NCBI GenBank assembly: GCA_002104985.1
Contig: MCGO01000023.1
Location: 310,001-374,000, forward strand
Reading direction: 5' to 3'
DNA: 64,000 nucleotides
DNA from: Rhizoclosmatium globosum
Taxonomy: Eukaryota; Chytridiomycota; Chytridiomycetes; Chytridiales; Chytriomycetaceae
Shown: positions 18,045-34,213 of the stretch, piece after piece
Layout of the letters: each line of letters starts with the position of its first letter
How positions within the stretch are numbered: position 1 is the stretch's first letter
Position numbers and translations under genes: made by a program
Notes under the pieces: model-generated
Told to the model about the DNA's origin: nothing
The model's input: only the letters and a program-made list of their open reading frames with translations
Database searches by the model: none

Positions 18045-21000
18045 ATGGATCTGTACGACGAATTCGGCAACTACATTGGGCCGGAGCTTGACGAAGACTC
18101 TGACATTGAGAACAACGAAGCGGAGGAAGAGCAAAACCACGAACGGGAACGGGAACGGGAACAGGCACAGGATGCGATGGAAGAAGGTGCGTTCTCGAGT
18201 GAAGCAGCGCTGCTCTGACACGTTCAATCAGACGAAGAAGAAGCCGAAGTCGCTACTGATTCACTTGCGCTGCTTTCGCGGAACCAACTTCGAGTCGATG
18301 GTTTGTTTTGTTTTGTTTTGGAGGATTGCCTTTGGTGGGATGCGTAGTTCTGTCTCACTGACTTCAATACAACCAACCAACCAACCAACAACCAAACAGG
18401 ATCGTCAACAATCTCAAATCAAATTGTGCTCCACGAAGACAAAAAGTACTATCCAACCGCAGAAGAAGTGTACGGCGAAGGTGTCGAAACACTGGTCCAG
18501 GACGAGGACACACAGCCCCTCTCGCAGCCAATTGTTGCTCCTCCGAAACAACCAAAGACCCACGTGCTCGAAAAGGGGCTTCCAGTGACAACCTTTGACA
18601 AGGGCTTTCTCACGGACCTCCAACACCATCCCTCACACATCAGAAACATTGCTCTCATTGGTCATTTGCACCACGGAAAGACCAGTTTTGCAGATTTACT
18701 CATTCATCAAACTCATGAAGTGTCTTGGGCTCCCGGCTCGGACACGCGTTACACCGATACTCATGAACTCGAACGTCATCGTGGTCTCTCCATCAAATCT
18801 ATGCCAATCTCTTTGGTGCTTCCTGACCTCAAAGGGAAATCTCATTTGATTAATCTCTTGGATACTCCCGGACACGTCAATTTCTCGGATGAAGTTACCG
18901 CAGCTCTTCGTCTCGCCGATGGTGCTGTTGTTGTTGTAGATGTTGTCGAGGGGGTTAGTACTGTCTTCTATGAGTGAGATCATGACTGAGAGAATGAAAG
19001 CTACGACTGAGATCATGACTGAGATCATGACTGAGAGAATGAAACCTACGAGTGAGATCATGACTGAGAGAATGATACCTACGAGTGAGATCATGACTGA
19101 GAGGGTAACGAAACCTACGAGTGAGAGGAACGAGTGAGAAATATCTAACGGGCGGGCGCGAAAAACATATTGAAATGGAGGAATAGCGAGCGAAGCGAGC
19201 AGAGAAACCGACGGAGTCGGTTCAACGTCGAAAAATACAAAAGTGAGCGGACTCGCGGGAGGCGAGACGAGCGTTTGGAACTGTCTTGCGCAGCGAACAA
19301 ACTTGCGGAGTGAGTAGAAAGACATTGACCTCCAGATACTTCTTATTGAGCGAGGAACGAACGCAATATGGCTTGTGTTATGCAGTATGACAACTTTGTA
19401 AGCACAGCGAGCGAACTTCGTGGAGTAGCGCGACCAGTAGCAAGAGTACGAGTATCCTACGCCACACTAACAACAAACCGAATAGGTTATGGTCAACACT
19501 GAGAAACTGATTCGTCATTTGGTGGCTGAACGTATTCCAATCACTTTGGTTGTCAACAAAGTCGATCGTTTGATTCTGGAACTCAAGCTTCCTCCAGCAG
19601 CCGCCTATTTCAAGCTGAAACACACTATTGAAGAAGTCAACTCTGTATTATCGTACGTTAACTTCATGCACCACCTGTCATAGACCCTAACCTCTATGTT
19701 ATAGTCAGTGTCCTGGAGGTGAAGACATGCGAGTCTCTCCAGAGCTTGGGAATGTTTGTTTTGCGTCTACTCAAATGGGATGGTGTTTCTCACTGCGCTC
19801 ATTCGCAAAAATATATTCGGACAACAACGACTCTGCCTTTGACTTCCAAGAATTCGCGAAGCGCATGTGGGGTGATATTTATTTTGACGGCGCCAAACGA
19901 ACATTCCTTCGCAAACCGATCTCCTCCTCCTCTAAGCGCACATTTGTACATTTTATCTTGGAGCCCCTCTATAAGTTATATGTGCAAGTTTTAGGAGAGG
20001 ATACCAAAGCTTTGGGTGCCAGCCTGGCGTCCCTTGGTATTTATTTAAAGCCAAGTCAATTGACGTTGGATATGAAGCCCTTGTTGACTCTTGTGTGCCA
20101 AGAATTCTTTGGAAATGCTGGAGATGGATTTGTCGATATGGTCACACGGCATTTGCCCTCACCTCTCGAAAACGCTGTGACGAAAGTCAACCACATTTGG
20201 ACTGGATTGGAAGCAGAAGGTGGCGAATACTCGGAGGAGATTTTAGAAGCGATGCACAAATGTGATCCTAAAGGTCCATTGATGATTCATGTGACAAAGT
20301 GTTACAACAGTGTGGATATGAGTGAATTTGAAGTATTTGGGCGTGTGATGAGCGGAACTGTTAAGGACGGTATGAGTGTTCGAGTCTTGGGAGAGCGCTA
20401 CTCTCCAGAGGATGAGGAAGATATGGTTGTCAAAGATGTTGCGGGATTAAGTGTCTATCAGTCTCGATACAAGATCAAAGTTACGTCTGTTGGTGCTGGA
20501 AACTGGGTGTTGTTGAGTGGCGTTGATGCATCGATTGTCAAGACTGCCACTATCACGAATGTGACACCAACAGACGATAATCCAGTTCACATCTTCAGGC
20601 CTCTGCGCTTCAATACTTCTGCGGTGCTCAAAATTGCCGTAGAGCCAGTCAATCCAACCGAACTCCCAAAAATGCTGGATGGACTCAGAAAAGTGAACAG
20701 AAGCTATCCAATTCTCGAAACAGAAGTTGAAGAGTCTGGGGAACACATCTTGCTGGGTACTGGAGAGCTCTACCTTGACTGCGTACTTCACGACCTTCGT
20801 CGCCTCTATTCTGAAATTGAAATCAAAGTGTCTGATCCTGTTGTGAGATTTGCAGAAACTGTTGTTGAAGTTTCGAGCATCAAGTGTTTTGCTGAGACTC
20901 AAAACAAAAAGAACAAGCTGACCATGATCGCTGAACCATTGGAGAAAGGGATTGCTGAAGATATTGAAGGATTGAGGATTTCAATGAAAATGCCAAAGAA

Positions 21001-21879
21001 GGAATTGGAGAGTGTGTTTATGAAGCAGTATGATTGGGACGTGTTAGCGAGCAGAAATGTGTGGGCGTTTGGACCAACCGAAAATGGGCCTAATGTGTTG
21101 GTGAATGATACTTTGTCAGATGTGAGTGCTGATTTATTCAATCTTCGTCAACTAATATCAATGATGTTTAGACTGACAAGAAAATCTTGAATGCTTCGCG
21201 TGATAACATCGTCCAAGGTTTCCAATGGGCTGCTAAGCAAGGTCCACTCGCCGATGAGCGTAAGTATTCCTGGAATTGAATCGCGCAAAACACTCATATT
21301 TTTTTCTTAGCGATCCGAAATGTGAAGTTCAAGATCATTGATGCAACGATTGTTGGAGGTCCAATCCATAGCGGAAGAGGCCAGATCATCCCAGCTGCCC
21401 GAAGAGTGTGTTACTCATCGTTCTTAATGGCCTCTCCGCGTCTCATGGAACCAGTGTATTATGTTGAAATCCAAGCACCTGCAGACTGTGTCGCTGCCGT
21501 TTACCTTGTCTTGGCCCGTCGCCGTGGCCATGTCACTCAAGATATTCCTAAGCCAGGTTCTCCACTGTATACTGTGAAAGCTTACATCCCAGTCATTGAG
21601 TCATGTGGGTTTGAAACTGACTTGCGTACACACACACAAGGACAAGCATTCTGTCAACAAGTATTTGATCATTGGCAGATTGTTCCAGGAGACCCATTGG
21701 ATAAGGGTATCGTCTTGAGACCACTCGAGCCTGCTCCTGCTCAACATTTGGCAAGAGACTTTATGATTAAGACAAGGAGAAGAAAGGGACTAAGCGAGGA
21801 TGTTGCTGTTACCAAGTTCTTTGACGATCCAATGTTGATTGAGTTGGCAAAACTTGAAGGTGGTATCTTGGGGTTGTGA
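18045..21879 (+). CDS. SNU114: U5 snRNP GTPase Snu114/EFTUD2
   Basis: Seven exons: 18045-18186, 18232-18300, 18400-18953, 19486-19652, 19705-21121, 21172-21259, 21311-21879, total 1001 residues (human 972, yeast 1008). It is an EF-G-like GTPase of the U5 snRNP and tri-snRNP, working with Brr2 and Prp8 in spliceosome activation. The N-terminus starts [20 protein letters not shown] with an acidic region. The G domain shows GHLHHGKTS (P-loop), [11 protein letters not shown] (switch II) and VNKVDRL; EF-G domains II-V follow. All junctions keep frame. Intron 3 (18954-19485, 532 bp) is several times longer than the others and contains a minisatellite. Intron 2 carries a (CCAA)n run. No frameshift is seen anywhere in this gene. 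Confidence 0.95.
18969..19138 (+). repeat. Minisatellite inside SNU114 intron 3
   Basis: Imperfect tandem units of about 33 bp built on GTGAGATCATGACTGAGAGA and AATGAAACCTACGA, about five copies, followed by purine-rich sequence containing GCGAGCGAAGCGAGC. It lies wholly within the intron. Every unit offers a possible 5' splice site, GTGAGA, so it could affect donor choice. Confidence 0.85.
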
Positions 21880-22034: not shown

Positions 22035-22038
22035 GCTC

Positions 22039-23531
22039 TGTAACAAGCAACCAACGAGTACGAATAGATGGATGTAAATAATTAATTTAACTTGTCAACT
22101 GTAGCCGTTGATGCTTGTATATAATAAAAATAGATTCGATTTCTATTGTTCCCAATGGTAGTATGACGACTAGCAATGGGTTAAGATGGGCAATGATGTG
22201 TTGGCGTTCCTAATTCTTTTAGTCGAGTCAGCGAACTTAAACTCGGAGCAGCGGTGTATTGAATGAGAGGGAGAAACCTTTTAGTCGAGTCAGCGAACTT
22301 AAACTCGGAGCAGCGGTGTATTGAATGAGAGGGAGAAACCTTTTGTGCACGAAGTTTGACGTTAACAACGTGTAAAGGGGAGCAGTAAATGGGAGAGAGT
22401 GTAGAACCTTTTAGTCGAGTCAGCGAACTTAAACTCGGAGCAGCGGTGTATTGAATGAGAGGGAGAAACCTTTTGGTTTGATTGTGTTTGTGTAAGTTGA
22501 GAGGGGAGCAATAATATAACAAGCCGAAGCTTCTAACCTTTTGTGCACGAAGTTTGACGTTAACAACGTGTAAAGGGGAGCAGTAAATGGGAGAGAGTGT
22601 AGAACCTTAATAAGGTATAACGCGTTCAGTCCAATTTGTTTCCAACGGCAACTCAAATCAATAAACACCTTTTAGTCGAGTCAGCGAACTTAAACTCGGA
22701 GCAGCGGTGTATTGAATGAGAGGGAGAAACCTAATTAAGAGCAGCGCAACGCTTAAGATAAGAAACTGCAATAACTTCCTAATTTATTAAACGAAAATAC
22801 CTTTTGGTTTGATTGTGTTTGTGTAAGTTGAGAGGGGAGCAATAATATAACAAGCCGAAGCTTCTAACCTAGTGACACTCCACCAATCAGAGATGTTCAA
22901 CACTCTCACTGTCTCATACCTTTTGTGCACGAAGTTTGACGTTAACAACGTGTAAAGGGGAGCAGTAAATGGGAGAGAGTGTAGAACCTGGAAAACCAAA
23001 GGTATAAAGAAAGATAAGAAACTGATAAGAGTATAAGACCGCCAAAACTCCACCTTAATAAGGTATAACGCGTTCAGTCCAATTTGTTTCCAACGGCAAC
23101 TCAAATCAATAAACACCTAACGTTCCCAGTCCATCAGTTTCATAATGAACCCTCAAAATCACACCTTTTAGTCGAGTCAGCGAACTTAAACTCGGAGCAG
23201 CGGTGTATTGAATGAGAGGGAGAAACCTGAGGATCGCAACGAATAAGAAAAACGCCGATAAGGAAACAAGAACCCAATGAACAACACTCCACCTAATTAA
23301 GAGCAGCGCAACGCTTAAGATAAGAAACTGCAATAACTTCGAAGAAAGAAAAAAAAGAAAGGGGAAAACGGGAAAAGCAACAAAGAAGAAAATCCCGACA
23401 ATTCCCCATTATCCCTTACGTACGGTCCAAATTGGACGAACACGCGCCTGAGCACGCACCCATCAAAACAAGGTGAGAATTATTCGACTTGGTATTACCG
23501 ATAGTCGATTGTTTATTCGAAGCTTGTAACA
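22039..23531 (-). repeat. 3' LTR (1493 bp), internally repetitive
   Basis: Sense order on the minus strand of block units, all ending AG: E (23340-23293), u1, A, u2, D, u3, B, u4, C, u5 (to 22779), then E, A, D, B, C (22778-22470), then A, B, A, A (22469-22216). Blocks are A 62, B 68, C 68, D 63 and E 48 bp. Segments u1-u4 (66, 48, 66, 51 bp) each start GT, end AG and occur only in the first series. The last 43 codons or so of Pol run into this LTR. Confidence 0.9.
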
Positions 23532-26500
23532 GTTCCTTTGAGCCAAGTGGCAACGTCGCGTCGCCCCCTGACGCGGAGATAATATGGTTGAGCCTTATAC
23601 TAACATTTTCTTGAAACTGGATTTGGTTGACAAACTGTAAATCACTGAAGTCATCCAAATCCTCAAAAGGATCCATAATTTTAGCAGACAATATACTAGC
23701 AAAGATAGAATCTTGAGACTCAGCATCAATTTCTTCATTCAGGAACAATGTATCAATATTGAAGACCATCGGCGGATACCATAACTTCAAACGATCACCA
23801 GAAACAGGACGTCGACGTAGTCGTCCATCAAATTCACGCAAGATATAAGCACCCTCAAGTACTTCAGCAATAATATACGGTCCAAACCAGGCGTCTTTCC
23901 ATTTTCGACGGTGTTGATCATGTAAATTCGAGTCAAACACTAATACTGGATCCCCGACACAAAGCCTTTTCTCACGAATTTGTTTTCTGTATTTTTCATT
24001 ATAATATTCGGCACCACGTTGTCTGTCACGCTCGATTTGTTGTTTGATTTGAAGTAAATCTGATGCTCTGCAGTCCAACACTCTTTCTCTTGCAGCAATT
24101 AATTCATGCAATGTCATGGTTTCTTTGAAGTTAACAACAGCAAATGAACTGAATTCCAGATCTAAATGTAAGACTGGTTCCTGTCCAAAGCCAATATAAT
24201 AAGCAGACTCTCGTCTGAAACTTGTAGTAATATTTGTAGCAAAACAGAAGGACGACAAACGGTCGACCCATTTCTTTGGATTATCACGACAACCTCTCGC
24301 AATAGCAGCGACCAACGGAGCATGACGACGTTCCCCTGGTCCAAGCCCTTTGTGATTATGAGGTGCAATTAGTGATATATCAATGTGATAACGATCATAG
24401 ACTTCTCTTGCTTTCTTTGAAGACATTGTTGACTGGTCAAAGAATAATCTAGACGGCAAACCAAAACGATGGAATACATTCTTGATAGTCCAATCCAATG
24501 AGCTCTCCCAATTTTGTAACTTAAAACCTTTCGCCTCAACCCATCCGCTGATACCTTCAGTCATGTGCCAAAGATTAATATAACCGTTTCCAGTGACTGG
24601 CATTGTAACCCAATCACCGTACCAAACAAGCCACACAGACGAAGGAGTTCGCGACGGGTTTAACTTTTCTTTCTCTTGATCAAATCTTGAACGTTGACAT
24701 GTGTCACATCTTTTACAGTACTCATAAACATCCTTCCGAAGAGTCTTCCACCAAAACCGGAGCTTCAACTTAAGATACGTCGCCTCAAAAGCAAAGTGAC
24801 CTTCGTCATGCGCATCTCGAATTAATTCCAGCTGAGTGATACGTCTAGTAATAACTTGTTTCGGAAAAGAGTCTTCAGACCTCTTGTAAAGCACACCATT
24901 TCGTAAATAGAACTGAGCAGCCATCTTGCAGAGTCGCTGGATTTGCTTTGCAGTTAACTCGTCTGAAAATACTTGCTCATCTAAATATTTAGCCACATGT
25001 TTCAAATCATTGTCCTCGTCATAGGTTTCCCGTAACGTTGCGGCTCGGACATTGATTCTACAATAAACCATGGCTGCATCCAATGCTGCATCAATAGCAT
25101 TATCTAACTCCGCATTATCATTTTCTTCTTCATCCACAGACTTATCATACATTCTTGACATAGCATCGGCAAGATTCTTATCAGTACGAACAAATTCAAA
25201 GCTGATTGGAAACTGGTGAATATACGCAATACTTCGCTTCATATGAATATCAATATTTGCAGGATTATTGAGCATTCCACGAATATAGCTTGCGTCCCCA
25301 CGAAGTACTACTTTTGGTGCAAGACAGATCTGAGGTTGAGCGCGCATCAAACCCAAACAGCATGACTCAAGTTCTAACTTTGGAATTGACCACTCACGTT
25401 GTTCTTTAGACCAAATAGAACCAAAATTATGAGACGGTTGGAACTTCCTATTCTCATTTTCTTGACCCAAAATCTGACAGTTAGCTTTACCGCTCGCATC
25501 AAAGTACAAGATTGGTGGTCTTAAATCAAAAGCATCATAATTGAGGTTGATACGTACAGGAGCTGTTAACATGGCTGTTTTGAGTGCTTCAAACGCCTCC
25601 TGTTGTTCAAATCCCCAATACCAAGTTACACCTTTCCGCAGAAGTTCGAAAAGTGGACATGTAATATGTGAGAATCGAGGAATGTACATACGATAGAACT
25701 GACACATTTGTAACATAGAACGTAATTTATCAACACCTTTTGGGACTGGATATCGAGCCATAACATCCAACTTTGAAGGATTAATATAACGACCTTCAGA
25801 CGAACATACAATGCCTAAAACAATGGCTTTTGAAACACCAATTTGAACTTTGTTGTTGAACGTAAGACCTGTTTCAATGGCTCGATCACACATATATTTC
25901 ACCACATGACCTAATTGTTGAACTTCAGAACGGATACCGTCAATTACAGGACTGATTGGTCCAATTCCTGCATATACTGTAAGATCGTCTTGAAGTCCTC
26001 GAACGTCTCCATTACTCGGAGCAACAAATTCCATAGATGTAATACGTTGGCCAACTTGTGCAGAATTAGTTTGTCCTTGAGACAAACCGGTAGGGCGGAT
26101 CAAACCAATTGGAGTATTAATTGCTGAGATATCGCGACACTTTGGCATAACTAAAATCTGATCAAAGTACGACTCAAAATCAAAGAGAGCCATCAACGAA
26201 TGACCTGCGATTTCTTCAGTTTGAAACTCCATATATGGCATAGTACCAACGTCTCTAATAGTAACAGCATTTCCACGTTGACCATCACAAATCGGACGGA
26301 TACTACCATTTTTCTTCAAGACTGGCCACCAACGATTTGAATACGGTGAATTACAAAACTCATGACATCCGGCTTCAATCCGCTTGTTGAAGTAATCAAT
26401 GACTTTCTGTGCCATACTTTTTGGAACAGGTGGTGCCTTATCTTTCCACGGGACGTGAGGAATAGTATGTATTTCTACCGGTGCTCCCTTGTAACAGCCA

Positions 26501-27647
26501 ATTTCCAAGAGATCCATAGAAAACGCGCCTCGACGAACACGAATAATATCTTTGAGATACTTAATTTCCAAATTGGTAAGTTTAGCCTCCTTGCGACAAT
26601 CACGGAAACAAAACTCCAACTGCTCTTCAGTCCAATCTGGCAAAACTTTTCCTCGTTGCGATATCCATTTTAACGGTTTGAATACATCAGCTCCGCCTGG
26701 TACCTGCATTGCAACCGGCTTTACTTTTTCGGCAACAGTTTTGGCTTTGCGAACGTGGACATAATCACTCGCAATAGACAATTCACATATAACTGGAACG
26801 TGATCAGATCCAAGCATATGATAACCGTGATAACATTGTTTGACAAGTATTGAAGTTGAAACCCAAATACCATCGAAGCGAGCTCCCACGTTCCCGCGAC
26901 GATTGTAATGAAGCCAAGTTGTAAACTCTACTGCTTTTGGGTGTAATACACGATAGCAATCACGAAGTTTTAATGTTAAATCTCGTAAATAAAGTCGTTC
27001 ATTATACTTAAATCCAGACGATATTTGTTGAATCATGGACGGATGTATATCACAAGACTCTTGTGCACTATTGAAGTCAGCACACAGAATAACACTTTGA
27101 TTCTCTTGTAATAGTTGGTTTACACGAGTTAAGACTGCTCGACTAAACTCTTCTTTGAACGGTAATCGACTGTCATGATGACGACTCGCATTAACCATAT
27201 ACACATTCAAAATAGTTGTAACGCCAACAGTAACTTCTAAATAACGACCTTCACATTGGTCTTCATTTAAACCTGGCAAAGATTTGACGATTGAAACTGG
27301 CTCCACAAATCTGGATTGTTTGATTCCAGTCAACACGCCATTTCTACGTTTCCCAAAACCCAACGAATTGAAAGGGAATTCGGAATGATAGACATAATAC
27401 TCAGAGAAATCTAAACTTCGAAGTTTTAGCAACCTTTCTTCGTCCAACTTAGACTCTTGAATACAAATTATGTCGAAGGACAACAACTCCCGAATATTAT
27501 CCTCAGACATATAACGAGCAACATTTCTCACTGAATTGACGTTCCAAGAAATAACAGAGATTCTTGAACTTTGCCCAGGCATCAATCCAGTTGACGACGT
27601 AGTATTTAGCACTTTCAGTTTAACGGCCAGCTGCTCTCTAGCCTTTA
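23416..27647 (-). CDS. pol: Pol: EEP endonuclease, reverse transcriptase, RNase H, integrase
   Basis: About 1400 codons in the -1 frame relative to Gag. Numbering from 27612: residues 18-280 are an exonuclease III/AP-endonuclease (EEP) domain with ISWNVNSVRN (metal-site Asn), IQESK (Glu53), CADFNSAQ (Asp179/Asn181), TTWLHYN, RFDGIW (Asp247) and GSDHVPV (Ser-Asp-His 269-271). RT follows at about 400-560 (WWPVLKKNGSIRPICDGQ, LFDFESYFD, LQDDLTVYAG with the Asp pair), then RNase H (YFDASGKA), then integrase with an H-x3-H...C-x2-C zinc site (DAHDEGH, CKRCDTC) and DDE core (GDWVTMP, FFDQST, GPGERRH). All catalytic residues expected of each domain appear intact. No aspartic protease is seen. The C-terminus is encoded within the 3' LTR. 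Confidence 0.9.
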
Positions 27648-30600
27648 CTGAAAATCCGCCGAATCATCGTCTTCCTTCCCTGGACGGCGACGATTAACAT
27701 CAATGCGAACTCTTGGATCATGAATATTCGCAACTTGTACATTGACATTCTTTTTACGATCTGGACTCTTGAGATTAGCCCAACAATTTCCATCGTCGTC
27801 AAATTTGACGTTGACGTTTGCAGCAAACCAGAACGGCATTCCAGCCAAAGCATAGAACGACGGTTTCACACCCTCCGGCAAAGCTGGTAAAACCCAAGAT
27901 TTCTGCTTGTACTTAAAACTAGCGACCTCCCAAGTCGAATTTTGTACAACGGCAGCAATCACAGTCTTTCCATTATTCGCTGCGACCATAATCAAATGAA
28001 CGTCTGAAATCAATTCATTGACCGAGGCACACAATGATGCAATCTCCCACTGCACAAAGTTTGAGTCGGAACAGCTATCAAGTGGAACTTCATACAACGT
28101 AACAATGCCTTGAAACAATACATTCTTCAATCCAATTGATGGATACGTACTATACTGTGTCTCTGGATCAAGTCGACGCTTAAACTCATTTGCATTTGTA
28201 TTCAACGACGAATATGAATAACTCATGTAAGTATTATCTTCTGATTTGATAACTGGCTTACGACTTTCCATACGATCCATGGCTTTCAAGAGATCTGCAT
28301 ACTCTTGTGGCGACACCATTGTTTTATAATTAGCTACGAAAATATTACACATTGAAGTTGGAATGTCTTCAACACGTGTTGGATTCATAAAATACTGTCG
28401 TGTTAAATCGCGCTCCAATTCCAAAGTTAGAATCTGATTCAACTGAGCTGGAATAGGAGTGGTTGTTGGCTGCGACGCTTTACTTGTCTGCTCATCCAAG
28501 TATTGACGTTCCATTGTTGTTAAATTGCCACACCCCCGACTGAACGTTGAACTCAACTGCATAAGTTCAAGAAACGGAATAGTGACGTTGATGCTTTTAA
28601 GTATGTCATCAATGACCTGCTGATCTGTTTTACTCGTTAACTGCTTCTTAACAAGCTTGTACGGTCTACGATGAATTTCTGGCTTTGTTGTCGGTTGAGT
28701 TTCCGGCTTACTGGCTTCCTTTGAAGGCTGCGAACTTCCAGATGTATTCGGTTGCGCTGGCTTTGTCGTTGGATCAAACAGCTTCTTTACAAGTTGTGGA
28801 ACAACTGTTGACGTCGGCTTAGATGGACCTCCGGCTTTGGCAACTGATGGTTTCTCTTGAACTATTTCAGTTGGCCTTGAACGTAACTTCATTCGATCAC
28901 TATCGCCCTCAGCATTATCTTCTGCTCGACGTTTGATCCAAGCTTGAATTTCTTGATATTCCTGAGCGATTTTATCACAGGTATACGGTCCCCCATTACC
29001 GACCCCGCGATTAATCATAGAATTATACGTTTCATCGATTTCAAATTGAGTTACTTCTTCACCACACATTTCGGTAAAGACGTCCACAATAGATGCAAGC
29101 TCCTCTCCACTATCATCCAAAAACAAGAACTTATCGTCGTACCCCTCAAATACAACGGGTTCATAAATCAAGGATGAATAGGCTGGATTAATTTTGATGG
29201 CATTGACATGGATTTCATCGTCCCATTTGTCATTCAGTAGACCCGACGAAGTTGTCCTCTCATCCCACGGTTGATCGACAACATTAATTGTAAACATTCT
29301 TGACTCCGCTGGTTTCAATTGACGAATACGAATTAACTCAGATGCAACCTCAGGTACAGTATAATTATCATATTTAACTCGACGATAAAGAGACTCGAGC
29401 GTTTCAATGATTTCACGATCAGTCACTGGTGGATCAAGTTCAGGAAAGAATGCCACGGCTCTCATAAGACATCCATTAAAATTAAATCTTAAAGTATTTG
29501 TTGAGTACGGACTTCCAATATATGGTACACAATAAGCGAAACGGAAAACTGGATGTATCTTCAAGCTGTACATGATTGCTTTTAGTTCTTCCTGTTTGAA
29601 ATACTCATATTTGTCCTCCCAAACAGTTTCTTCAACAATAGATTCATCGTCCGAAGCGTACCCGTAAACACTCGTTTTGTGAACGTGAAACATATTCGTA
29701 GTAGTAGCAACTGGTTTCAACTCCCTTGCCCTCGTATCAAGGATAAGCTGACGTTGACCACCCTTTCCAAAATAAGTTTGTTTCATTTCAGCGTCTTTGT
29801 AATATACAGCCATTTGGTCGTTCTCATTTCTCTTGACTGCAATCGGCCAGTTGTTCACGTCCTTATCATGATTCAACTGCTCACACTTGTTAAGTTGAAA
29901 GACTTTGCCAGGATGCTCCGTAGTTCCTGTAACTTTGTCACAATACTTGCACAAGAATGGTTTCTTCGGAGGAATGGGCTTCTCCAAAGTACCCGAAAAG
30001 AACAACTTCATTTTCTCCATTAATTCCGCAACTTCGTTTACGTCTGGAGTAGATACTGGCGTCGGCGTTGATGCAGACGCTGGCTTTTTAGGATCCTGTT
30101 TTGGTTTTGTTTCCTTTGAAAGCTCCTTAGTTTGGGTCTTCTGCGAATCAGTCTTCTCGGATTTCGACAAATTATCCGGCTTTGAGGACTTTGCAGCAGT
30201 TTTAGTATGTTTGTGTTTCTTTGTAATTTCTGGCTCGGAATCACTCGACGACACTGCGGCTTCTTCCAATTCAGAATCGTCCGAGTCGAAATACTCGTTT
30301 CCAGTTCCTTTAGATAGAGACGATGCTTTGCGATCCACAATATCCATCTCATTAATGACTCTACGAAACTTCTCCCAATCGTATTTAATCTTTCCACCAG
30401 CACCCAAAATCTGATGAAGAATGTGCTTTCTTTTAATTTCGTCGAACGCTTTCAAGAATGTGTTGATTTTCTCGTTGTCCAATGGAACAGATACTTCATC
30501 CATCATTGCAAGTAGACGTTCAAACTCGGCTAAATATTGACCCGACGGTTGTGGCTTCCGCTGTTGTCGATAGGCAAACGCGGTAAGTGTTTCTTGAGTA

Positions 30601-30875
30601 ACAATAACATCTTGATCCGCAAACTCAGTAATAATCCACTTTTTGACTTCGTTGAATGTTGGCTCGACGTCATTCTCTTCAACGAATACTTTGACCCACA
30701 ATTCATACTTTGCATTCACGGCTGGAGAAAACTTTCCAGTCATATAACCAAGTTTCTTGGAATTGGTGTCAAATCCCAATTCACCACACTTCTTACGGAC
30801 GAACTCAACAAAGTCCGTACCTCTTGGACCCTTGAAGTCCTTATCTTTAAAACGCTCCATAACTGACTTGCCCAT
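27645..30875 (-). CDS. gag: Gag-like protein, 1076 residues
   Basis: ATG chosen at 30875 (MGKSVMERFKDKDF), just inside the 5' LTR boundary; an ATG at 30926 lies in the LTR. Residues about 80-200 resemble retrotransposon Gag capsid (RQQRKPQPSGQYLAEFERLL, then FLKAFDEIKRKHIL). A Ser/Lys/Thr-rich linker follows, then a Cys/His cluster (CKYCDK...CEQLNH) that may bind zinc. The remaining 700 residues are unusual for Gag. FLFLDDSGEELASIV has a D-S-G triad in a hydrophobic setting that might be the missing protease, but the flap and second half are not recognisable. The frame ends TTTCAGTAA at 27645. Its length, roughly two to three times a normal Gag, suggests extra domains. Confidence 0.75.
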   Translation of the reverse strand: MGKSVMERFKDKDFKGPRGTDFVEFVRKKCGELGFDTNSKKLGYMTGKFSPAVNAKYELWVKVFVEENDVEPTFNEVKKWIITEFADQDVIVTQETLTAFAYRQQRKPQPSGQYLAEFERLLAMMDEVSVPLDNEKINTFLKAFDEIKRKHILHQILGAGGKIKYDWEKFRRVINEMDIVDRKASSLSKGTGNEYFDSDDSELEEAAVSSSDSEPEITKKHKHTKTAAKSSKPDNLSKSEKTDSQKTQTKELSKETKPKQDPKKPASASTPTPVSTPDVNEVAELMEKMKLFFSGTLEKPIPPKKPFLCKYCDKVTGTTEHPGKVFQLNKCEQLNHDKDVNNWPIAVKRNENDQMAVYYKDAEMKQTYFGKGGQRQLILDTRARELKPVATTTNMFHVHKTSVYGYASDDESIVEETVWEDKYEYFKQEELKAIMYSLKIHPVFRFAYCVPYIGSPYSTNTLRFNFNGCLMRAVAFFPELDPPVTDREIIETLESLYRRVKYDNYTVPEVASELIRIRQLKPAESRMFTINVVDQPWDERTTSSGLLNDKWDDEIHVNAIKINPAYSSLIYEPVVFEGYDDKFLFLDDSGEELASIVDVFTEMCGEEVTQFEIDETYNSMINRGVGNGGPYTCDKIAQEYQEIQAWIKRRAEDNAEGDSDRMKLRSRPTEIVQEKPSVAKAGGPSKPTSTVVPQLVKKLFDPTTKPAQPNTSGSSQPSKEASKPETQPTTKPEIHRRPYKLVKKQLTSKTDQQVIDDILKSINVTIPFLELMQLSSTFSRGCGNLTTMERQYLDEQTSKASQPTTTPIPAQLNQILTLELERDLTRQYFMNPTRVEDIPTSMCNIFVANYKTMVSPQEYADLLKAMDRMESRKPVIKSEDNTYMSYSYSSLNTNANEFKRRLDPETQYSTYPSIGLKNVLFQGIVTLYEVPLDSCSDSNFVQWEIASLCASVNELISDVHLIMVAANNGKTVIAAVVQNSTWEVASFKYKQKSWVLPALPEGVKPSFYALAGMPFWFAANVNVKFDDDGNCWANLKSPDRKKNVNVQVANIHDPRVRIDVNRRRPGKEDDDSADFQ
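27651..27657 (-). promoter_or_regulatory. Candidate -1 ribosomal frameshift site GGATTTT
   Basis: Sense-strand GGATTTT ends 5 nt before the Gag stop. The -1 frame is open only from the TGA just upstream, so any shift must happen within about 15 nt. The heptamer resembles the non-canonical G-GAU-UUA type known from retroviral pro-pol junctions. An alternative is splicing, since TTTTCAG also looks like an acceptor. Confidence 0.5.
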
Positions 30876-30892
30876 TTTAATAATAGAAATAA

Positions 30893-30910
30893 TTTGGTAC
30901 GCTCGCCAAC
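30893..30910 (-). promoter_or_regulatory. Primer-binding site of the retrotransposon
   Basis: Immediately after the 5' LTR in sense orientation is GT then TGGCGAGCGTACC. The TGG matches the complement of a tRNA 3' CCA end, spaced 2 nt from the LTR. I could not assign the tRNA from memory. Confidence 0.55.
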
Positions 30911-32829
30911 TGTAACAAGCAACCAACGAGTACGAATAGATGGATGTAAATAATTAATTTAACTTGTCAACTGTACACCGTTCACGGTATTTAGTGTCCA
31001 TGAATAATTAGTGTCGATTCATAATTAGTGTCGTCGACACTATTTCATGTGTGGACTAGCCAACCGCCCATCCCGCCGAAAATCGACACTTATTCATGTG
31101 TAACTTCTTATATTTATTTAAGATAATTCAGCTTTTGTTTCATTACTTCATCCATAGTAATAAAGCGAGGAGTCCGATGGAAATGAGGAAGATGCTTGAA
31201 TTATGTTTGGCTGTTGCGGATGTATTGACAACTTATATTTATTGAAGAGAATGAAGAAAGAAGTGTTACTTGACTTGAACATAATTTACTGTCTATTCAT
31301 AATTAGTGTCGACGACACTATATCCTGTTCCGACCTACTTATCAAGGGGTTTTGGTTGACACAGTAAATAGTGTCGTCGACACTAAATACCGTGAACGGT
31401 GTAGCCGTTGATGCTTGTATATAATAAAATAGATTCGATTTCTATTGTTCCCAATGGTAGTATGACGACTAGCAATGGGTTAAGATGGGCAATGATGTGT
31501 TGGCGTTCCTAATTCTTTTAGTCGAGTCAGCGAACTTAAACTCGGAGCAGCGGTGTATTGAATGAGAGGGAGAAACCTTTTAGTCGAGTCAGCGAACTTA
31601 AACTCGGAGCAGCGGTGTATTGAATGAGAGGGAGAAACCTTTTGTGCACGAAGTTTGACGTTAACAACGTGTAAAGGGGAGCAGTAAATGGGAGAGAGTG
31701 TAGAACCTTTTAGTCGAGTCAGCGAACTTAAACTCGGAGCAGCGGTGTATTGAATGAGAGGGAGAAACCTTTTGGTTTGATTGTGTTTGTGTAAGTTGAG
31801 AGGGGAGCAATAATATAACAAGCCGAAGCTTCTAACCTTTTGTGCACGAAGTTTGACGTTAACAACGTGTAAAGGGGAGCAGTAAATGGGAGAGAGTGTA
31901 GAACCTTAATAAGGTATAACGCGTTCAGTCCAATTTGTTTCCAACGGCAACTCAAATCAATAAACACCTTTTAGTCGAGTCAGCGAACTTAAACTCGGAG
32001 CAGCGGTGTATTGAATGAGAGGGAGAAACCTAATTAAGAGCAGCGCAACGCTTAAGATAAGAAACTGCAATAACTTCCTAATTTATTAAACGAAAATACC
32101 TTTTGGTTTGATTGTGTTTGTGTAAGTTGAGAGGGGAGCAATAATATAACAAGCCGAAGCTTCTAACCTAGTGACACTCCACCAATCAGAGATGTTCAAC
32201 ACTCTCACTGTCTCATACCTTTTGTGCACGAAGTTTGACGTTAACAACGTGTAAAGGGGAGCAGTAAATGGGAGAGAGTGTAGAACCTGGAAAACCAAAG
32301 GTATAAAGAAAGATAAGAAACTGATAAGAGTATAAGACTGCCAAAACTCCACCTTAATAAGGTATAACGCGTTCAGTCCAATTTGTTTCCAACGGCAACT
32401 CAAATCAATAAACACCTAACGTTCCCAGTCCATCAGTTTCATAATGAACCCTCAAAATCACACCTTTTAGTCGAGTCAGCGAACTTAAACTCGGAGCAGC
32501 GGTGTATTGAATGAGAGGGAGAAACCTGAGGATCGCAACGAATAAGAAAAACGCCGATAAGGAAACAAGAACCCAATGAACAACACTCCACCTAATTAAG
32601 AGCAGCGCAACGCTTAAGATAAGAAACTGCAATAACTTCGAAGAAAGAAAAAAAGAAAGGGGAAAACGGGAAAAGCAACAAAGAAGAAAATCCCGACAAT
32701 TCCCCATTATCCCTTACGTACGGTCCAAATTGGACGAACACGCGCCTGAGCACGCACCCATCAAAACAAGGTGAGAATTATTCGACTTGGTATTACCGAT
32801 AGTCGATTGTTTATTCGAAGCTTGTAACA
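30911..32829 (-). repeat. 5' LTR (1919 bp including a nested MITE)
   Basis: Same block architecture as the 3' LTR. Without the 426-bp MITE and its extra TA it is 1491 bp. Differences from the 3' LTR that I can see are one C/T substitution (near 32337 versus 23038) and two single-base length changes in A runs. It supplies the stop codon of the interrupted Crinkler B gene at its right edge. Confidence 0.9.
30976..31401. mobile_element. 426-bp MITE with TA target duplication
   Basis: Perfect 23-bp inverted termini beginning CACCGTTCACGGTATTTAGT, flanked by TA at 30974-30975 and 31402-31403. It is absent from the other LTR, so it arrived after the retrotransposon. Interior non-coding, with repeated short palindromes such as AGTGTCGTCGACACT. 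TA duplication and size point to a Tc1/mariner-type MITE; its termini are unlike those of the pogo-type element at 403-4002. Confidence 0.92.
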
Positions 32830-34213
32830 GCTCTGTTTTTCTGAATGAAGGACCTTATCATTGCCTTAACATCATCATCCCTATCCATCTCAGGGTCGGC
32901 ATCCTCATAAGTTCTTTGATTACGAATATCTTTAAGTTTGACAGCAGAAAAATTGTATCTTGATGTGTCTTGACTCTTGTGTTTACGTTTTTTGCCTTGA
33001 TTACTATCAAATTCGTCAACGTCCTCGTCCACAAAATCAACTGGTTGGAGTTCAAAGTCACAGCGATCTAACATTTGTTGTACTGCCTTTAAATATCCTT
33101 GGATAAGGCCAATAGCTAAGTCGATGTCCAAGTTTTGGGACGAGCTGATAACGTTTGAATATAAATTCAGTAAAATAATAATTGTCACTTTATACATACC
33201 AAAGAACTTTACGGCCTGATCGATTTTGAATCCATAGGATTTTCCAGGAATACATTAAATCAGTTACTACCGCTAGAACGGGGTAGCTCGATATTGAATC
33301 AGCTGCGAGCAGCTCTAATTCCGTTTGCTTCAACTTCATATCCTTATTTGAAGGTTTACGAAGCTCGAATAGGACATGACAGTTGTTCACACTTCTTGCA
33401 GGAGCATCCGTCGATGATATCAAGCAATCTGCGTTGCCTATGAACCAAGTTTAGTTCAAGTTTGTCTGCTCCTTTTTTGAATTACATACCTTTGAGAGAA
33501 AATTCATCATTGAATGATGTTTCGAGACTGGAATCCTCAAGGTCGCCGTCATATATTTGCAGAGGAAAAAATTCCCCGAATTTCTCTCTGATAAATGACA
33601 AGTATGCATTCTTGTTCACTGGTGAATCTTCCTCGGAATTCTGCCAAACAAATGCCTCGTTTCCCGATGTCAGGTATTGCGACAACCTTGGAATCACAAA
33701 ATCAGCCGTCAAAATATCTAAATCTTTGAGAAGATTTTCTCTGAAACTAGGGCTGGCGCTGGATATTGAAGTGGCCCTGGGTGTCTCATTCAATTCAATG
33801 AAACCCTCTCGCACTCTTGCTGGAATCGCAGATAGAATACGATCAATGATATCATCCGGAAGAAGCACTAAAACAATCGATCAGGATTTGTTCTGTGGTT
33901 AATAAGCTAACCTACCGGGGTTCTTTGGATTTGGTACAACCACATACAATAGCGTATCCTCAGTTTTACCCTTGTCCATCACTGGAGAACTAGCTTTAAG
34001 CATCTTTGTAAGGTCGGTAACGTCATTTTTGTTTAAGAAGACCTTCAGATCGGAGGCGTCATATTGTTTCAACTTGTGGTTCTTGTTCTTTTCCAAAATG
34101 GACTCCCTTAAGTCTGCTATAATAGACTCGCTACTAATCTTAACCCTGTCGTTACTAACGTAATCGAAGGCTGGCTCACCAGAGTGGCCGACAAGTGTGT
34201 ACCAGACGTTCAT
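32811..34213 (-). CDS. Crinkler-type protein, C-terminus altered by retrotransposon insertion
   Basis: Four exons: 34213-33916, 33867-33490, 33437-33200, 33144-32811; 415 codons to a stop that lies inside the LTR. The first 100 residues are the CRN ubiquitin-like header (WYTLVGHSGEPAF, DLRESILEKNKNHKLKQYDAS). The middle contains VLFELRKPSNKD followed by ELELLAADSISSYPVLAVV, the look of a PD-(D/E)XK nuclease-like fold with Glu-x-(Lys/Arg), as seen in many CRN proteins; this is inference. The C-terminal part is charged (VDEDVDEFDSNQGKKRKHKS), possibly nuclear. The native last dozen codons now sit at 21995-22034. Whether the product still works is unknown. Confidence 0.75.

Follow-up and report, generated by a model that had tools for sequence, protein, structure and literature searches.

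What would an apurinic/apyrimidinic (AP)-type endonuclease do in a long terminal repeat (LTR) retrotransposon that also encodes an integrase? The question is raised by a single LTR retrotransposon on the minus strand (outer LTR limits 22039-32829) of a 64,000-nucleotide stretch of the chytrid Rhizoclosmatium globosum, contig MCGO01000023.1, positions 310,001 to 374,000, here called the window. The element proves to be one of many, in that two lineages of Ty3-type elements carry within Pol a nuclease of the Xth (exonuclease III)/APE1 type, an arrangement for which no prior description was found in the accessible parts of the searched literature. Judged from the sequences, we tentatively favor the reading that these are integrase-type Ty3 elements in which a Gag-Pol-borne nuclease of the Xth/APE1 family would serve the element's own complementary DNA (cDNA). 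Before insertion, such elements may mend or trim their own DNA copy.

The Pol frame of the window element is made up as follows, with the evidence for each feature in brackets.

23416..27612, minus strand: Pol open reading frame (ORF), in the order endonuclease/exonuclease/phosphatase (EEP) domain, reverse transcriptase (RT), RNase H, integrase (ORF list, Pfam, residue check)
26800..27552, minus strand: EEP domain of the Xth/APE1 family, Pol residues 21-271 (Pfam, alignment, fold comparison)
25123..26751, minus strand: RT and RNase H, at approximate Pol residues 288-830 (Pfam, residues)
24325..24948, minus strand: integrase, zinc domain plus catalytic core, at approximate Pol residues 889-1096 (Pfam, residues)

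The presence of an AP-type endonuclease domain and an integrase in one LTR element, which was the central claim of a first-pass annotation of this DNA, was confirmed by Pfam matches, by residue checks and by the LTRs. The Exo_endo_phos profile (PF03372) that had been expected to match did so over the full model at Pol residues 21-271 (E 7e-16), and the catalytic residues that had been listed (N24, E53, D179, N181, D247 and S269-D270-H271) were exact. In the alignment, the core set N, E, Y, D/N, D and SDH is complete at positions that we assigned from what we take to be the Xth/APE1 motifs. The same frame matches Integrase_H2C2 and RT_RNaseH_2, with rve and RVT_1 below the cut-off, and the catalytic residues of RT, RNase H and integrase are present at sites picked by eye from presumed motifs, 34 residues separating the last D of the integrase from its E. 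No Pfam match to dUTPase was found in the window Pol or Gag at E <= 1.

By its fold, its full-length sequence match and its core catalytic residues, the domain belongs to the Xth/APE1 family. The EEP fold, on which the domain call had been made to depend, was found in Foldseek and VIA comparisons. The sequence matches Xth at E 4e-24 and the long interspersed nuclear element (LINE) LINE-1 at E 0.007, while a LINE of the same genome, used as a control, matches LINE-1 at E 7e-12. A LINE-type identity was rejected on this kinship. No LINE endonuclease was among the best 50 matches listed by Foldseek and VIA, a result that excludes nothing.

The domain is not peculiar to one copy, being found in most related elements of the genome and in a relative from Chytriomyces confervae; the earlier expectation that other copies would keep it has thus been borne out. 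The genome survey covered 56.9 Mb, and its profile-match counts are lower bounds: at least 83 EEP, 60 H2C2 and 132 RVT_1 matches. A same-strand EEP match lies within 4.5 kb of 46 of the 60 H2C2 matches. From the side of the EEP matches, 34 of the 83 lie between RT and integrase and 4 lie ahead of RT with integrase behind, while another 10 have integrase but no RVT_1 match, including those of the window (C146) and of C347 and C411, all EEP-first. The remainder are LINE-like, with EEP and RT but no integrase (19/83), or stand alone (16/83). These tallies count matches rather than elements (C245 and C366:50k are each split in two), and the underlying neighbor table holds all EEP and H2C2 rows and the 73 of 132 RVT_1 rows selected as relevant. 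The window family has two further copies that were found, C411 and C347, with the Pol frame interrupted in both.

Among proteins from elsewhere, the window Pol is matched best by the Chytriomyces confervae protein (40% identity over 89% of the query), which has the EEP in front, lacking the start of the domain, together with RT, RNase H and H2C2 matches. PF03372 is annotated in none of the other 38 proteins that match the window Pol. Two groups of EEP-bearing elements, A (which includes the window element) and B, are defined below. A search with an alignment of group-A EEP domains, whose length window leaves out full-length Pols, returned 58 short PF03372 proteins, several of them named exodeoxyribonuclease III and one (P0076) fused to other domains. 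The corresponding group-B search, by a method that needs shared 5-residue words and proteins of similar length, gave no match, and a scan of viral contigs with the group-A alignment found no relative. As a separate observation, the group-A copy C412 (C412:14501-20000, plus strand) adjoins frames with WD40 repeats and a possible NACHT/STAND part, judged by eye only.

The history of the domain was approached through two trees. The RT-RNase H tree has 42 rows, consisting of 25 of the 38 database proteins P0002-P0039, P0001 and 16 rows from the genome, with near-copies dropped, and it places the window element among Ty3-type rows. The EEP-first elements (window, Chytriomyces, C412 and C301) form one clade (support 100/99) that is sister to C383, C13 and C397, in which the EEP lies between RNase H and integrase (97/91); together these make up group A. 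Group B, consisting of C43 and five further rows with the EEP in the middle, lies elsewhere on the tree, and each group has EEP-less neighbors. Uniting all 13 EEP-bearing rows costs 148 log-likelihood units, and a single origin of all EEP-bearing Pols was rejected by this tree (p-AU 7e-20). The EEP tree has 82 rows, with the near-copies C347, C368 and C90 dropped, and the program warned of long branches meeting, including that of the window row with B_C130. On it each of the groups A and B forms a clade of its own (100/99 and 100/100), and their union as a single clade is allowed (p-AU 0.365). The EEP-first elements are not one clade on the best EEP tree, and a single clade was not rejected (p-AU 0.208). 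Because the RT rejects one clade while the EEP tree allows A and B together, the domain was either captured twice or captured once and then handed from one Ty3 lineage to another, and in addition it was relocated within group A. Three EEP matches fetched as candidate host Xth genes were not Xth-like by phmmer, and no donor was identified among them.

If the captured domain were a functionless passenger, a fragment of a host gene carried along in Pol, it should be free to decay, and a first hint in that direction comes from elements that lack it (no EEP match lies near 14 of the 60 H2C2 matches) and from the decayed group-B copy C384, in which the EEP segment has been deleted (C384:148701-150900). 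The latter was also considered as a natural EEP-less variant and rejected, since it derives by deletion from a group-B family and its frames are broken. The domain is under strong purifying selection, as had been proposed, with few nonsynonymous against saturated synonymous changes across pairs. Between C43 and C214, the EEP differs at 136 of its 181 synonymous sites and at 68 of its 668 nonsynonymous ones; nonsynonymous change is 0.102 in the EEP, compared with 0.074 in RT-RNase H, 0.057 in the integrase, and 0.203 and 0.134 in the two linkers. The pair C401-C246 gives a ratio of nonsynonymous to synonymous change (dN/dS) of 0.18, and the window and C347 differ by 2 synonymous and 1 nonsynonymous changes; the other six of eight EEP pairs are saturated at synonymous sites. 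Across six group-A EEP sequences, five of which are only 32-36% identical to that of the window, 43 columns are invariant, and the domain is also kept in a second species. The passenger explanation is thereby already largely refuted, and we give it hardly any credence.

How the elements enter DNA bears on a second alternative, namely that the EEP, like a LINE endonuclease, opens the chromosomal DNA so that priming or entry without integrase can follow, which was the role that the first-pass annotation had entertained. The ends of the window element are as follows.

30911..32829, minus strand: 5' LTR, 1919 bp, TG...CA ends, split by a nested insert (blastn against the 3' LTR; ends read)
22039..23531, minus strand: 3' LTR, 1493 bp, containing the Pol stop (blastn, sequence read)
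22035..22038, plus strand: target-site duplication GCTC, left copy (flank read)
32830..32833, plus strand: target-site duplication GCTC, right copy (flank read)

The LTRs are 99.79% identical (one mismatch and two gaps in 1433 blastn columns), in agreement with the earlier claim of recent activity with the domain intact. Flanks were read in eight elements, seven of them EEP-bearing. Exact 4-bp duplications were found in five of the seven (GCTC in the window, GGGG in C412, CTGG in C13, ATGT in C203 and GAGG in C368), the duplicated words differing among copies; the duplication of C411 is imperfect by one base, and C43 has none. The EEP-less element C77 has a 5-bp duplication, TGGAT. Target-primed insertion, as in LINEs, is recognized by the lack of LTRs and by variable duplications, whereas the window element has LTRs and a 4-bp duplication, and the insertions look integrase-made. 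Given the TG...CA ends and the short, differing duplications, the EEP is unlikely to open target DNA. The LINE-like role can still draw on the membership of LINE endonucleases in the same fold superfamily, on the LINE-like EEP-RT pairs of the same genome, on copy C43 and on the EEP tree, which, with its long LINE branches, allows group A together with LINE (p-AU 0.242) and puts group B with LINE at weak support (92/56), tree results that also weigh against the rejection of a LINE identity. With the closest kin of the domain being Xth/APE1 and with a short duplication found even where the EEP is lacking, we regard target nicking as quite improbable, and the earlier suggestion is not supported. 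In the C368 copy (C368:90809-101585), Gag and a second, partial EEP are inverted relative to Pol between the matching 4-bp duplications, an inversion that perhaps arose during reverse transcription.

The tentatively favored role on the element's own cDNA rests on the chemistry of the family, the intact partner enzymes, the constraint, the occurrence in two lineages and a retroviral parallel. Uracil, abasic sites and ragged ends can occur in what reverse transcription produces. The nuclease would be made as part of Gag-Pol and carried in the particle, where it would act on the element's own cDNA, cutting at abasic sites and removing 3' ends that are blocked, mismatched or extended. Sound 3'-OH ends would result for strand transfer, for synthesis and for the integrase. 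By analogy, the EEP might then be a DNA-hygiene enzyme with a purpose akin to that of retroviral dUTPase.

Several observations weigh against this cDNA reading, in addition to the imperfect and the missing duplication described above. Residues important for AP sites in APE1 are altered: at the position of F266 all 13 element rows have T where five cellular rows have F, Y or W, N174 is replaced in 11 of the 13, and all seven group-A rows have A, M or F in place of W280. The APE1 numbering is as we take it to be, and F266 and W280 presumably form the pocket. The window EEP, with T and A at these two positions, does not have the APE1 pocket and is therefore not called an AP endonuclease by activity. 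The F266 position varies among the five cellular rows too, and the pocket was not taken as defining the Xth family; the loop before the G-x-R-x-D motif is also two residues shorter in group A. Structure 1ako, which we take to be E. coli ExoIII, and APE2 match the window EEP only at about 3e-5 and 4e-5. The domain is dispensable for the life cycle in general, as seen from the 14 H2C2 matches without it and from four EEP-less Ty3 families that were read (C77, C365, C388 and C264). Finally, the comparison with dUTPase rests on position only, and the cDNA-repair activity is itself a prediction. Since the pocket residues are changed in the subgroup of the window, trimming of 3' ends is likelier there than strict cutting at AP sites.

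The altered pocket of group A also leaves room for another substrate. RNA:DNA hybrids and RNA are side substrates of ExoIII and APE1, and the EEP could remove RNA at primer or polypurine junctions, or nick RNA:DNA hybrids, as an aid to RNase H; its place after RNase H in group B and in part of group A would suit such a role. In the window Pol, however, the RNase H catalytic residues are present, leaving nothing obvious to replace, and in its subgroup the EEP sits at the opposite end of Pol. We consider this RNA-directed role unlikely, if worth keeping in mind. To our knowledge, reverse transcriptases are generally held to lack proofreading, and a bolder extension of the favored cDNA role, which we hold to be comparably doubtful, is a chytrid guild of Ty3 elements with their own cDNA quality control, in which an Xth-type nuclease of Pol would proofread or repair the reverse transcript in the particle, having been acquired twice or exchanged, and relocated within Pol. 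The EEP might instead be freed from Pol to act on host DNA repair, silencing or chromatin. Accessory domains with supposed host roles are known in or beside Pol, such as the chromodomain and, in the available part of one report, an m6A demethylase in orchid Gypsy elements (PMC9289625). Nothing in the present data points to a host target and the core catalytic residues have been kept nuclease-like, which makes a host-directed role very unlikely.

The remaining features of the window element are these.

27645..30926, minus strand: Gag ORF, with the ATG of the MGKSVMERF start at 30875 (ORF list)
27825..28082, minus strand: degenerate retropepsin-like region at the end of Gag (by eye)
27651..27657, minus strand: GGATTTT, likely -1 frameshift site linking Gag to Pol (frames read)
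30896..30908, minus strand: probable primer-binding site TGGCGAGCGTACC, starting with TGG, two bases from the LTR end (sequence read)
30976..31403, no strand assigned: nested insert, 426 bp, with 23-bp exact terminal inverted repeats and duplicated TA (repeat analysis)

The Gag ORF has no Pfam match, and retropepsin was not matched by Pfam anywhere in the element. The retropepsin-like region, read by eye where a retropepsin would have D-[ST]-G, has LDSCS at 28059-28082 and a GMPF motif at 27825-27845; the corresponding degenerate sites before GMPF in group A are MDKGS (C412) and LDQGS (C13), and the group-B element C43 has DTGA. Pol is likely expressed by a -1 frameshift at GGATTTT, where its frame overlaps the end of Gag, and the GTG start listed for the Pol ORF is therefore probably unused; the site presumably resembles the pro-pol frameshift site of mouse mammary tumor virus. 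The Pol frame runs 116 bp into the 3' LTR before it reaches its stop codon (23416-23531). Two pattern searches found no tRNA matching the primer-binding site. The nested insert is younger than the retrotransposon, because the 3' LTR lacks it, and judged by its TA target it resembles a non-autonomous Tc1/mariner-type element. Within each LTR (22203-23232; 31502-32531), repeat units of 81, 74, 85 and 67 bp form an interspersed array, and in C411 blocks of the arrays are missing or rearranged. The adjoining host gene (19727-21190) resembles, by eye only, a translation-factor-type spliceosomal GTPase (Snu114/EFTUD2).

Should the Xth-type nuclease of these Pols prove active, the result would be a natural retroelement with cDNA repair built into its replication machinery, and the related families with and without the EEP on the RT tree offer a comparison for effects on error rate and integration. 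For annotation, the lesson is that an EEP domain beside an RT is no proof of a LINE.

The papers cited from here on were available in part unless otherwise stated. No account of elements of this kind turned up in the searched literature, which took in neither Repbase nor most subscription papers, and priority is therefore uncertain. In the parts available, a survey of fungal LTR elements that includes one chytrid describes complex elements with many additional domains and does not name the EEP (PMC3248453), an accessory-domain paper lists the chromodomain along with a DnaQ-like exonuclease (PMC6338049), a fungal screen places Exo_endo_phos with LINEs (PMC10799480), and a DNA methyltransferase (DNMT) paper has Exo_endo_phos in a Symbiodinium figure legend (PMC5890265). 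A term search of the main text of a study of early-diverging fungi that covers Rhizoclosmatium found the domain unmentioned (PMC8778642). On the statement of the first-pass annotation that no LTR element with both enzymes is known, the searched literature gave one passing remark, about the Kuafuorterviruses of animals, a group of LTR elements whose Exo_endo_phos domains are described as sporadic and possibly of host origin (PMC11673190); the available passage gives neither placement nor conservation.

Compared with Ty3/Gypsy elements (Metaviridae), the window element shares the RT-RNase H-H2C2-DDE order, the TG...CA LTRs, the 4-bp duplication and the overlap of Gag and Pol at a likely frameshift, and differs in having an Xth/APE1-type nuclease inside Pol, ahead of RT or, in its relatives, between RNase H and integrase. 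With Xth and APE1 themselves the domain shares the fold and the core catalytic residues, but here it is fused in a retroelement polyprotein, with changes at F266 and, in most rows, at N174 in both groups, and at W280 in group A. LINEs with an apurinic-like endonuclease likewise have an EEP-superfamily domain ahead of RT; the present sequences are far nearer to Xth/APE1, in elements with LTRs, a Ty3-type RNase H, an integrase and short integrase-type duplications. The bdelloid rotifer LTR elements Juno and Vesta captured a DEDDy (DnaQ-like) 3'-5' exonuclease, gained at least twice, as ORF3 (PMC5408684, as far as available). They share with the chytrid elements a captured nuclease that LTR elements gained more than once and that different retroelement groups have in common, but the fold is another and the nuclease is a separate ORF rather than a domain within Pol. 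The retroviral dUTPase of non-primate lentiviruses and betaretroviruses is a DNA-hygiene enzyme in a Gag-Pol or Gag-PR precursor, much as is proposed for the EEP. The lentiviral form, where carried, lies between RNase H and integrase, and a longer betaretroviral form comes from the Gag-PR precursor (PMC4531489, in the part available). The protein and its chemistry are unrelated to those of the EEP, and the likeness is one of position and supposed purpose only, the lentiviral slot being the same as that of most EEP-integrase pairs in this genome.

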